A DNA stretch of 11,543 nt from Desulfobulbus sp. (GTDB lineage: Bacteria; Pseudomonadota; Gammaproteobacteria; Burkholderiales; Rhodocyclaceae). Positions 7,721 through 11,543 of the stretch are shown one piece after another. The translations under genes and the position numbers were made by a program. Under the pieces are notes generated by a model, which saw only the letters and a program-made list of their open reading frames with translations, had not been told where the DNA came from and searched no databases. The stretch's first letter is position 1; each line of letters begins with the position of its first letter. The DNA is taken from assembly GCA_009782025.1 (NCBI GenBank), contig WQUQ01000191.1, forward strand, positions 1 through 11,543, in the 5' to 3' direction.

Positions 7721-10051
7721 GTGCGCTTTTCGCTGACGAAAGAGGTCGCCTGGGAACGTTTCATCGACCGCCCCGAGCGCTTCGACCGCCAGAAGGCGCG
7801 CTTCATCGGGGCCTATGGCGGCATGGCCTGGCAGCCGCCCGGGGCGGTGACGATCCCCGAGGAACTCTGGCTGGTGGAGGGCATTTTCGACGCCATCGCG
7901 CTCTATCATCACGTCATCCGCGCCGCCGCGATCATGTCCTCGTCGAACTACCCGCACCTGATGCTGACGGCCCTGAAGGCGCAATGCGCGGTGGCCAAAA
8001 AGCCCTTGCCCACGCTGATCTGGGCGCTCGATGCGGACGAGGCCGGGCGGCGGGCGACGTGGAAGTTTCACACGCGCGCCCTCGAGGAAGGCTGGCCGTC
8101 AACCGCCGCGCAGCCGCCCGGCGGACGGGCGGGCAAGCTGGACTGGAACGACCTGCACCAGCGCGACCGGCTGAGCCGGGACGACCTCGAGGCGTATCGC
8201 CATGCCGGGAAAATCCTGCTGGCCGGCACGCCGGCCGAGAAGGCGGGGCTGCTGTGGGAGAAAAATCGGCGCACGCAATTTTTCTTCGACCACGGCAAGA
8301 AACTGTACTGGTCGAAGATGGACATCGAGGCGGCGGAAAAGGCGCATCGCGTTTATGTCGAGGCCGGCCTGACGCCCGACGAGGCCAACGCGAAGGCGGC
8401 GCGCGATGCGCTCTCGACGGTGGAGATCTGCAACTGCCTGCCGGAGCCGCTCTACCATCTGGCCAACAGCGTGACGGGCGAGGCGTGGTACTACTTTCGC
8501 GTCTCCTTCCCGCATGACGGCGCGCCGATTCAGGACACCTTCACCCCGGCGCAACTGGCGGCGGCTTCCGAATTCAAGAAGCGCCTGCTCTCCTTCCCCG
8601 GCGCGGTGTGGACGGGCAAGGCGGGCCAGCTCGACCACGTGGTGGAACGCTGGACCTACAACATCAAGCGCGTCGATACCATCGACTTTCTCGGCTACTC
8701 GCTGGCGCACGGGGCCTACCTCTTCAACGACGTGGCGGTAAAGGACGGCAAGGTCATCGCCAAGAATGACGAGGATTATTTCTCCTTCGGCCGGGTGGCG
8801 ATCCGCTCCTTGTCGAAGCAGAAGGCGCTGACCATCGCCGCCGACACCCCGGCGCCGGAGAAGGGCTGGTTTAAAAAATTCCACATCGCCTTCGGCAAGA
8901 AGGGCGTCGTCGCCCTCGGCTACTGGCTCGGCTGCCTGTTCGCCGAGCAGATTCGCCAGCGCTACGAATCCTGGCCCTTTCTGGAAATCGTCGGCGAGCC
9001 GGGTTCGGGCAAGACGGCCCTGCTGGAAACCTTGTGGAAGCTCTTCGGCCGCGCCGGCTACGAGGGCTTCGATCCGATGAAGGCCTCCGCCGTCGGCTTT
9101 CTGCGCAGCATGGCGCAGTTCGCCAACATTCCCGTGGTCCTGATCGAGGCCGACCGCGAGGATGTCGACGGCATGCGCGGCCGGCCGCGCCAGCAATTCT
9201 ACTGGGATAGCCTCAAGAGCCTCTACAACGGCGGCAGCCTCAGAACCACCGGCGTCAAGTCCGGCGGCTCGGACACCTACGACCCGCAATTTCGCGCCGC
9301 CCTCATCATCAGCCAGAACAACCCGGTGCAGGCCAGCCAGGCGATCATGGAGCGCATCGTCCACCTCGGCTTCGATAAATCGCACCACTCCGAGGCCGGC
9401 CACGCGGCGGCGCTGGAACTGGGGCGGGTGGAGGTCGGCCAGCTGGCCGGCTTCCTGCTCAAAGCGGCAACGAAGGAACGCGAGGTGCTGGCCATTCTCG
9501 ACAAAAAAGCCGCCGCCTACGAACAGCGCATGACGGATGCCGGCATCAAGAACCGCCGTATCGCCAAGAACACGGCCCAGGTGATGTGCATGGTCGAGGC
9601 GCTACCGCTGGTGGCGGGCGTGCCGAAGGACGTGGCCGAGGAAGCCATCGCGCTGCTCGCCGGCATGGCGAAGGCGCGCGAACGCGAACTCTCCCGCGAT
9701 CACCCCATCATCGAACGCTTCTGGGAAACCTACGAATTCCTGAACGGCACCGGCACGGGCAGCGACGAGGACGCCGACCTGGGCCTCTCCGCCCGGCTCA
9801 ATCACAGCCGCGACCCGGAACTGATCGCCATCAATCTCAACCATTTCGCCCAGCTGGCCGGCGACCTGCGCCAGCCGATCCCCGACCTGGGCGACATCAA
9901 GAAATACCTGCCGACCTCGAAAAAACACCGCTTCATCGAGGCCAATCGCACGGTATCGAGCGCCATCAACGCCCGCTTCAACCTGCACTCTGAGTCCGGC
10001 GCCAGCCTGCGGCCAGCCAGCGTGCGCTGCTGGATTTTCAAATCGCGATAG
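7721..10051 (+). CDS. 5'-truncated TOPRIM primase / AAA+ helicase, joined to the M remnant
   Basis: The listed start is the first available GTG, giving 776 residues. The real frame continues upstream to at least 7565 (RGWSKNYPVSSAS, then ADAYLAEGRGFDLDKIRGWY) without any start codon, so the gene has lost its 5' end. A TOPRIM domain lies at ~45-150, with E53 in LWLVEGIFDA, the D104-x-D106 pair in ALDADEAGR and DWNDLH at ~141. A linking region with VTGEAWYYFRVSFPHDG follows. The helicase part has Walker A GEPGSGKT at 425-432 and Walker B VVLIEADRED at ~472-481. Further blocks are SQNNPVQASQAIMERIVHL and NHSRDPELIAINLNHFAQLA. Larger relatives in phages and integrative elements usually start with a CHC2-type zinc finger, which is missing here. 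It probably unwinds and primes element DNA, but loss of the N-terminus makes it likely a pseudogene or a helicase-only product. Confidence 0.82.
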   Translation: MRFSLTKEVAWERFIDRPERFDRQKARFIGAYGGMAWQPPGAVTIPEELWLVEGIFDAIALYHHVIRAAAIMSSSNYPHLMLTALKAQCAVAKKPLPTLIWALDADEAGRRATWKFHTRALEEGWPSTAAQPPGGRAGKLDWNDLHQRDRLSRDDLEAYRHAGKILLAGTPAEKAGLLWEKNRRTQFFFDHGKKLYWSKMDIEAAEKAHRVYVEAGLTPDEANAKAARDALSTVEICNCLPEPLYHLANSVTGEAWYYFRVSFPHDGAPIQDTFTPAQLAAASEFKKRLLSFPGAVWTGKAGQLDHVVERWTYNIKRVDTIDFLGYSLAHGAYLFNDVAVKDGKVIAKNDEDYFSFGRVAIRSLSKQKALTIAADTPAPEKGWFKKFHIAFGKKGVVALGYWLGCLFAEQIRQRYESWPFLEIVGEPGSGKTALLETLWKLFGRAGYEGFDPMKASAVGFLRSMAQFANIPVVLIEADREDVDGMRGRPRQQFYWDSLKSLYNGGSLRTTGVKSGGSDTYDPQFRAALIISQNNPVQASQAIMERIVHLGFDKSHHSEAGHAAALELGRVEVGQLAGFLLKAATKEREVLAILDKKAAAYEQRMTDAGIKNRRIAKNTAQVMCMVEALPLVAGVPKDVAEEAIALLAGMAKARERELSRDHPIIERFWETYEFLNGTGTGSDEDADLGLSARLNHSRDPELIAINLNHFAQLAGDLRQPIPDLGDIKKYLPTSKKHRFIEANRTVSSAINARFNLHSESGASLRPASVRCWIFKSR

Positions 10052-10875: not shown

Positions 10876-10904
10876 ATAGTACGGGAATCCCGTATCGCCG
10901 TCAA
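10876..10904 (-). promoter_or_regulatory. promoter of the toxin-antitoxin operon
   Basis: Read leftwards: -35 TTGACG (10899-10904), a 17-bp spacer, then -10 TACTAT (10876-10881). Spacing is ideal and both boxes are close to the sigma-70 consensus. The toxin ATG is only 7 bp past the -10, so the message would be nearly leaderless, or a slightly different start site is used. Confidence 0.65.
10880..10894. promoter_or_regulatory. operator palindrome TACGGGA-A-TCCCGTA
   Basis: This is a perfect 7+1+7 dyad lying over the spacer and -10 box of the leftward promoter, 10 bp before the toxin start. It is exactly where a HigA-type dimer would bind to autoregulate its operon. It also ends only 17 bp from the -35 of the rightward promoter, so binding might influence that promoter too. 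Confidence 0.7.
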
Positions 10905-10911
10905 CCTCCGT

Positions 10912-10941
10912 TTGACACCCGCCGTCGGTCTGGACTATGCT
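10912..10941 (+). promoter_or_regulatory. sigma-70 promoter of the structured leader
   Basis: A perfect TTGACA -35 (10912-10917) is followed by an 18-bp spacer and TATGCT (10936-10941) as -10. Transcription would start near 10948 and run into the C4-like RNA. It faces away from the toxin-antitoxin promoter, with 7 bp between the two -35 boxes. Confidence 0.7.
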
Positions 10942-10947
10942 CCCCCC

Positions 10948-11029
10948 GTCGCCGAAACAAAGGCGACCGGGATTGCAGTCCCGAACGGAGCGGCGAGAAG
11001 CCGCAATGCGTTTGCCTTGCGGCTTTTTT
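10948..11029 (+). ncRNA. C4/CI-type phage immunity antisense RNA
   Basis: The predicted transcript is ~82 nt from the promoter start to the T-tract, about the size reported for P1 C4 RNA. It folds as four stems: GTCGCC/GGCGAC (10948-10967); CGGGA-TTGCAG-TCCCG (10968-10983); GCGGC-GAGAA-GCCGC (10990-11004); and a terminator stem AAGCCGCAA/TTGCGGCTT (10998-11025) followed by T's, the last two sharing bases and so competing. Its segment 10968-10995 is complementary in 26 of 28 bases to 11083-11113 downstream in the same leader. In P1/P7 (C4) and P4 (CI), such a small RNA made from the start of a transcript pairs with a later leader segment and blocks expression of the genes behind it. A reading across this leader (peptide pieces ERREAAMRLPCGFF and TRLQSGWRFTTATGAR) is what databases often call Icd-like. 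The assignment rests on structure, complementarity and recalled motifs. Confidence 0.7.
10998..11029 (+). terminator. Rho-independent terminator closing the antisense RNA
   Basis: AAGCCGCAA (10998-11006) pairs with TTGCGGCTT (11017-11025) around a 10-base loop, and T's continue to 11029. It lies between the promoter and the downstream genes, so transcripts must read through it for those genes to be expressed, as expected for a premature-termination immunity switch. Confidence 0.8.
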
Positions 11030-11082
11030 GTCGCCTTGGTGCGTCCAGTTATGGGCGGCCGGGCGGGAGGGGCCGCAAGGCC

Positions 11083-11160
11083 CGCCGATGCTCCGTCGGT
11101 ACTGCAACTCCCGTTTCGGTCGCCCACCCGATTGCAGTCGGGTTGGCGGTTCACAACCGC
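11083..11160 (+). promoter_or_regulatory. antisense target and switch-like hairpins in the leader
   Basis: 11083-11113 is the complement of the C4-like RNA core. Behind it, CCCGA-TTGCAG-TCGGG (11127-11142) repeats the same TTGCAG loop found in the antisense RNA, so ACTGCAA at 11101-11107 can pair either with the small RNA or with this local copy. GCGGTT-CAC-AACCGC (11146-11160) is a further hairpin just before the ribosome site of the next gene. Alternative pairing would tie small-RNA binding to termination or translation. The mechanism is inference. Confidence 0.5.
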
Positions 11161-11175
11161 AACTGGAGCACGATC

Positions 11176-11457
11176 ATGACGCATACTCCCCACAACCCGG
11201 TGGTTGACGCCATCGTCCGCACCGTCGCCGACGAGGCGCGCGCGGTCGAGAAGCCCTATCGCATGAGCGAAGAGGCGTTTCATCAATTCGACCTGGCCTG
11301 CCAGTCGCTGGGCGCGCTGGCGACGCTGTTCGCCGCGCACGATCAGCGGCAACTGGGCCTCTTGCTCGCCGAAGAAGTCGGCAGCCTGTTGAGCCTGGTG
11401 CACGACGCCCTCGTCACCGCGCACGCCGAACTCACCAACCGCGAGGTGGTGGCATGA
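11176..11457 (+). CDS. 93-residue protein of unknown function, first gene behind the immunity leader
   Basis: ATG at 11176 follows GGAG (11165-11168) at a 7-base distance. The open frame extends far upstream, but that part is antisense to the toxin-antitoxin genes and leader, so this start is preferred. The protein is acidic and helical, begins MTHTPHNPVVDAIVRTVADE, and has a hydrophobic mid-section (FDLACQSLGALATLFAAHD, then LGLLLAEEVGSLLSLVHDAL) that looks like packed helices, not membrane segments. I do not recognise a family. As the first gene under control of a C4-type leader it sits where P1 has icd/ant and P4 its early operon, so a role early after infection or on derepression is plausible but unproven. 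Its stop overlaps the next start as ATGA, indicating coupling. Confidence 0.75.
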   Translation: MTHTPHNPVVDAIVRTVADEARAVEKPYRMSEEAFHQFDLACQSLGALATLFAAHDQRQLGLLLAEEVGSLLSLVHDALVTAHAELTNREVVA

Positions 11458-11543
11458 CGAACGAGGCCGATACCGACAAAACCATCTCCAGACTGTGCTT
11501 CGGCATAAGCGATGTCGCCGCCGAGATCGATGGCTACGCCGCG
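11454..11543 (+). CDS. N-terminus of a second small gene, cut by the window end
   Basis: ATG at 11454 overlaps the previous stop (ATGA), with GAGG at 11443-11446 as ribosome site. The 30 visible residues begin MTNEADTDKTISRLCFGISD and continue VAAEIDGYAA with no stop. The family is unknown. It continues the operon that starts behind the C4-like leader. Confidence 0.65.
   Translation, partial: MTNEADTDKTISRLCFGISDVAAEIDGYAA

Follow-up and report, generated by a model that had tools for sequence, protein, structure and literature searches.

Near the end of the window, by which we mean the whole 11,543-nt stretch of DNA analysed here, lies a phage RNA on/off switch of a known type, comparable to those of phages P1 and P4 and embedded in prophage DNA. 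We interpret this locus as a P1/P4-type C4 immunity leader, with a probability of roughly 0.87. C4 most likely blocks translation of the operon that follows, and the short terminated leader RNA most likely acts as an attenuator or as a decoy for C4. At the sequence level, the locus contains a C4 match, complementarity to C4 at all four targets that co-varies among related loci, and a terminator (Table 1). Judged from these features, the antisense RNA is the segment at 11047-11131, and the 82-nt RNA at 10948-11029 resembles the upstream target element. This corrects the roles given in an earlier sequence-only reading of the same DNA, and an experiment built on that reading would have probed the wrong molecule.

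Table 1. Coordinates of the parts of the C4 locus in the window.
Feature	Position	Strand	Remarks
Sigma-70-type promoter, TTGACA-18-TATGCT	10912-10941	+	TTGACA 10912-10917, 18 nt, TATGCT 10936-10941; 10/12 matches
Short leader RNA, isrK-like / c4-a1b1-type, ~82 nt	10948-11029	+	RF01394 and RF03163 matches, both below cut-off
Leader 5' hairpin, GTCGCC/GGCGAC	10948-10967	+	
Target a1, TTGCAGT	10973-10979	+	Loop of hairpin 10968-10983
Target b1, ACGGAGC	10985-10991	+	
Terminator hairpin, outer stem	10992-11035	+	GGCGA 10992-10996 / TCGCC 11031-11035
Intrinsic terminator, inner stem and T6	11000-11006, 11017-11023, 11024-11029	+	GCCGCAA 11000-11006 / TTGCGGC 11017-11023, T6 11024-11029
C4 antisense RNA	11047-11131	+	RF01695, above cut-off
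C4 element b, TGCTCCGT	11089-11096	+	Loop of the third C4 hairpin
C4 element a, ACTGCAA	11101-11107	+	
Target a2, TTGCAGT	11132-11138	+	
Target b2, GGAGCA	11165-11170	+	Shine-Dalgarno GGAG inside; first-gene ATG at 11176
First operon gene, 93 aa	11176-11457	+	
Second gene	11454-11543	+	Start overlaps stop of first gene; runs off contig end

The Rfam C4 model RF01695 matched the window at 11047-11131 (55.5 bits against a cut-off of 45, E = 1e-8, model positions 1-87 of 87), and this was the sole C4 match in the genome of the window, which is 79% complete. The sequence-only reading had proposed a C4/CI-type antisense system and a scan with the C4 covariance model. The type of the system and the existence of a match were borne out, but the match falls on the segment that had been called the target and not on the proposed small RNA, so that inhibitor and target had been swapped. 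Since RF01695 matches 11047-11131 and not the 82-nt RNA, we regard the roles of the two segments as settled. The leader itself was matched by the isrK model RF01394 at 10948-11029 (37.5 bits against a cut-off of 50, E = 8e-7, model positions 1-77 of 77) and by the c4-a1b1 model RF03163, described as "a1, b1 targets of C4", at 10935-10987 (34.4 bits against a cut-off of 46.7, E = 3e-7, model positions 1-53 of 53). Both matches sit at the expected places and the next Rfam family on the leader had an E-value of 0.77. Being below both curated cut-offs, the leader is not counted as a formal member of the isrK or c4-a1b1 family. Both models are narrow for this group, since among 18 C4 loci scanned only 3 scored high enough for isrK and 1 for c4-a1b1. 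The promoter with a perfect TTGACA and the sequence features of an ~82-nt RNA ending in a terminator, both reported earlier, are present (Table 1); the stem of this terminator was absent from the list of the strict terminator scan and was picked up by a wider script.

The pairing claimed for the leader core was also recovered, with RNAduplex giving exactly 26 pairs between 10968-10995 and 11083-11113 (-42.2 kcal/mol). For the longer segments 10948-10999 and 11083-11128, the energy was -54.9 kcal/mol, a value reached by none of 500 dinucleotide-shuffled leaders (mean -32.2, sd 4.3, lowest -48.3). The sequence-only reading overlooked the second target pair, a2/b2, over the ribosome-binding site. 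The complements to C4 in the window are 7 nt long at a1, b1 and a2 and 6 nt long at b2, and the a1 and a2 regions contain an exact 10-nt repeat (10971-10980 and 11130-11139). The duplex of a2/b2 with C4 is weak relative to shuffles (-35.3 against a mean of -27.5), 14 of 500 being equally good. C4 pairs more strongly with the leader than with a2/b2 (-54.9 versus -35.3), which fits either a decoy or an attenuator role of the leader and separates neither from the other. When the window locus alone was compared with swaps, only a1 was far out, while b1, b2 and a2 were equalled by 6, 10 and 28% of the elements of other loci, respectively. Additional targets of the window C4 elsewhere in its own, incomplete genome were rejected, since the a+b pattern yielded 8 matches, 3 of them within the locus, as compared to 23 for the reversed control.

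To quantify the co-variation of the targets with C4, we used genomes of the same order. C4 was found in 7 of 60 relatives and, among 399 genomes from the order, in 55; each of the two scans gave no hit in 14 control genomes. Starting from 126 distinct C4 hits, we extracted 118 loci from 55 genomes in a common orientation. Of the hits left out, seven scored under the cut-off and one (G204:C3:272350-272438) lay close to another hit, while one locus scoring under the cut-off (L011) was retained. The boundaries of elements a and b were set by a script, whose rule errs on some unusual C4s. A free pairing search over 215 nt upstream, in which 22 of the 118 loci beat 95% of swaps upstream, 46 downstream and 8 on both sides, was too noisy and position-limited windows were therefore used instead. 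Exact complements of at least 6 nt to the C4 of the same locus were identified at a1 in 109, at b1 in 96, at a2 in 99 and at b2 in 93 of the 118 loci, compared to 16.9%, 9.0%, 13.8% and 7.0%, respectively, of 3818 swapped pairs. All four targets matched in 75 loci, as opposed to 0.13% of swaps, whereas at least one was missing at this threshold in 43 (three matched in 18, two in 19, one in 5 and none in 1); loci within one genome or genus are related, and these counts represent non-independent events. The b2 target overlaps a Shine-Dalgarno-like GGA, AGG or GAG in 87 of the 93 loci.

The number of distinct 9-nt strings was 45 for element a, some of which differ only by the cut point of the script, and 107 for element b. 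Within the genus of the window, the loci L005 and L008 have the same b and different a elements, and both a1 and a2 have changed along with a. The first gene after C4 encodes a protein rich in cysteine in both loci, 214 aa long in L005 and 210 aa in L008 (CRKGCHYCC and CQKGCAHCC, respectively). Taken as sequence complementarity, the data show that the upstream and downstream target pairs are both kept complementary to C4 across this set of 118 loci from a single order (55 genomes). The sequence-only reading had named the absence of compensatory changes in homologues as a reason to abandon it; such changes were found, the paired segments changing together. The variable a and b elements in this order would be tuned to adjacent targets, which is simpler than the retargeting to host genes that has been proposed for the numerous C4-like RNAs in Acinetobacter (PMC5320573).

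These results bear on two other explanations of the pairing. If the 82-nt RNA (10948-11030) were the C4-type antisense RNA and 11083-11113 its target, the 26 pairs between the segments would be accounted for, and there is a parallel in Gifsy-1, where the equivalent short RNA, IsrK, is described as working in trans on a downstream region of the mRNA to which it belongs (PMC4825925). For this reason, the short RNA of the window may be regulatory too. We nevertheless consider this assignment of roles highly improbable, since the C4 model fits 11047-11131 and not the 82-nt RNA, which is matched, below cut-off, by the isrK and "targets of C4" models, and since the second, downstream target pair of C4 is left unexplained. 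Alternatively, GC-rich hairpins could be complementary by chance, with no regulatory RNA involved. The region is indeed GC-rich and the shuffled leaders already average -32 kcal/mol, but the observed energy was reached by 0 of 500 shuffles, the C4 model is above its cut-off with two further models matching in the expected order, and the targets co-vary with C4 across the 118 loci, so that we give almost no weight to this explanation.

For the P1/P4-type immunity leader that we favour, we infer the processing of C4, the repression and the role of the short RNA from known systems. Transcription from the single promoter at 10912-10941 would either terminate at 11029, giving an isrK-like RNA of 82 nt, or continue through C4 into the operon. 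By analogy, C4 would be excised by RNase P, with the cut site placed solely from the P1 annotation and a mature RNA extending from about 11053 to 11128 if its ends correspond to those of the annotated P1 C4. In P1, the b' loop of C4 is reported to partly occlude ribosome-binding sites, while a' confers specificity and the 5' end is made by RNase P (PMC5320573). Element a and loop b of the window C4 would bind a1/b1 in the leader and a2/b2 at the first gene. Binding at a2/b2 would cover the Shine-Dalgarno sequence and block translation of the 93-aa gene, with the rest of the operon affected by polarity. Such covering is suggested by the GGAG within b2, by the overlap of b2 with a Shine-Dalgarno-like triplet in 87 of 93 loci and by the reported mode of action of P1 C4 (PMC5320573). 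Binding at a1/b1 may cause transcription to stop at the leader terminator, as in P4, or the short RNA may titrate C4 in an IsrK-like manner; the two sub-mechanisms are compatible with each other.

We also examined the structure of the leaders. A promoter with at least 9 of 12 matches to the consensus hexamers was located 15-75 nt upstream of a1 in 44 of 111 C4 loci (0.9% of shuffles), and in 105 of these 111 loci a1 fell in the loop of a hairpin (18% in the control). In 82 of 118 loci, the interval from a1 to C4 contained a terminator-like hairpin, compared to 8.6% of shuffles. No terminator with a T tract was found by the scan rule in 36 of the 118 loci; among the four other loci from the genus of the window, L003 and L008 have a T tract and L005 and L118 are without one by this rule, and hence attenuation cannot be universal. 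An outer stem that closes past the T tract, such as 10992-11035 in the window, was observed in 67 of 80 loci and 30% of shuffles, and read-through transcripts can therefore fold the T tract into a longer hairpin. An anti-terminator helix was rejected as a general feature, being identified in 29 of 80 loci as compared to 11% of shuffles.

If C4 acted mainly via a1/b1 on termination in the leader, with a secondary role for a2/b2, the high frequency of terminator-like hairpins between a1 and C4 (82 of 118 loci against 8.6% of shuffles) would be expected, and there is a precedent in the P4 CI RNA, for which premature termination via seqA and seqC is described (PMC4825925). Likewise, matches of at least 13 nt in sum were obtained for a1+b1 in 19 of 30 loci in genome G478, and for a2+b2 in only 9 of 30. 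However, a2 and b2 are conserved nearly as often as a1 and b1 (99 and 93 versus 109 and 96 of 118 loci), b2 lies on the Shine-Dalgarno sequence in 87 of 93 loci, and an anti-terminator arm open to displacement by C4 is not a general feature of the leaders, which makes a primarily P4-like attenuation unlikely. We entertain, as a tentative possibility, that the terminated 82-nt RNA titrates C4, such that strong firing of the promoter would lift the repression. This would be in line with the exact 10-nt repeat shared by the a1 and a2 regions, with the stronger binding of C4 by the leader than by a2/b2 and with the activation of downstream genes by IsrK in trans, which increased expression 139-fold for a translational fusion downstream and 8-fold for a transcriptional one (PMC4825925). 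Against it, the authors of the IsrK study favour a structural switch in the target mRNA over simple titration, and constitutive STnc1160 is reported not to have blunted the IsrK effect (PMC4825925).

Returning to the immunity leader as a whole, the order in the P1 GenBank record is two c4 promoters, "putative" a1 and b1, the C4 RNA, a2, b2, icd and ant, and that in P7 is c4, icd and ant, with matched C4 targets on both sides of C4 in both phages. The window shares with these leaders the order promoter, a1, b1, C4, a2, b2 and small first gene, as well as the position of b2 just upstream of the start codon, and in P1 and the window alike the distance from the final base of the -10 box to the start of a1 is 32 nt. 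The a and b sequences are different, the first gene is a 93-aa orphan rather than Icd, and no ant gene was seen in the window, whose contig covers only the first 90 bases of the second gene. Small genes also come first in the known systems, with icd preceding ant in P1 and small ORFs preceding alpha in P4. In P4 (seqA, CI RNA, seqC), an isrK match is followed by C4, and GTGAGAA and TTCACAGG, as read by eye, are located before C4 and again after it, with the second copy at the Shine-Dalgarno sequence; the upstream pair is beyond the range searched by the script, which therefore recovered the downstream pair alone. Common to P4 and the window are the terminated isrK-type RNA upstream of C4 and the second, downstream target copy at the Shine-Dalgarno sequence, whereas the upstream targets of P4 are farther from C4, and the window shows no alpha gene downstream, where the contig ends in the second gene, and has its primase-like ORF upstream.

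Gifsy-1 isrK/STnc1160, which we compared from its published description and not base by base, is similar in that a short RNA with a terminator precedes a stable, processed RNA and then a small ORF, and differs in its genes, orf45-anrP (PMC4825925). In Burkholderia cenocepacia J2315, ncS23 (81 nt, isrK, with a terminator) and ncS24 (90 nt, C4) are described as one transcriptional unit, with lengths derived from dRNA-seq and terminators that the authors themselves note are as yet unconfirmed (PMC4603805). The window locus, unlike ncS23 and ncS24, is known from its sequence alone. Both the c4 antisense RNA and c4-a1b1 were already included in a survey from 2010 (PMC2864571), and no published description of the window locus was found in the literature searched.

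Less expected was that some genomes contain many C4 loci, which in one of these, the related genome G170, show mutual specificity. At E <= 0.001, there were 29 C4 matches in G170, 35 in G466, 37 in G469, 39 in G470 and 30 in G478, many of those in the last four being below the family cut-off. The best a2/b2 target was the own one for all 29 C4s in G170, and the best a1/b1 target for 27 of 29 (ties counted as own), and no two loci in this genome share both a and b as cut by the script rule. It is conceivable, although doubtful, that the C4 loci constitute an orthogonal two-part RNA code (a x b), with the leader RNA as a built-in decoy and many switches per cell with little cross-talk, in which case the window locus would represent one codeword of the set. 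Cross matches of at least 13 nt in non-own pairs in G170 (21 of 812 for a2/b2 and 6 of 812 for a1/b1) and the weak preference for own targets in G478 (best in 10 of 30 for a2/b2 and 20 of 30 for a1/b1) speak against such a code. Within genomes, 1 of 1011 C4 pairs shared both a and b against an expectation of 1.94, numbers too small to judge avoidance, and this pair (L023 and L119, on two contigs of G204) may represent a duplicated contig end. Most C4 loci in G170 (for example L022, L046, L121, L122, L124 and L139) precede related small proteins of ~88-99 aa that contain MPNSPHSTPAPP and variants thereof, such that C4 and the small protein form a repeated unit.

The 93-aa protein of the window had no relatives besides the identical sequence in a large protein set, which places it on 5 contigs (the longest of 17,710 bases), no match in IMG/VR or in the genome contig set, and among 120 genomes was found only in its own. 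Alignments with the small first-gene proteins of other C4 loci gave 16-28% identity and a probability of 2% in the profile comparison, and homology is thus unsupported. The DNA of the window had no match among phage records, and there was no sign of a circular contig, since it contained no repeat of at least 40 nt. The C4 locus is surrounded by P2-type genes for capsid, scaffold and terminase, by a gene for a tape-measure protein and by an ORF resembling a primase, together with a toxin-antitoxin-like gene pair. A single small ORF separates the primase ORF (7721-10051, + strand) from the P2-type capsid gene upstream of it. The match of the primase ORF to PHROG 1139 begins only at position 126 of the 895-position profile, from which it follows that the 5' part of the ORF is either absent or encoded in a different frame. 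The segment 10221-10869 on the - strand is oriented away from the C4 promoter. It contains an HTH gene, for which HTH_31/HTH_3 scored above the cut-off and the MqsA antitoxin just under it, and a gene matched by RelE with a score under the cut-off. A perfect palindrome, TACGGGAATCCCGTA, is located at 10880-10894, beside a promoter-like site of these HTH and RelE-like genes.
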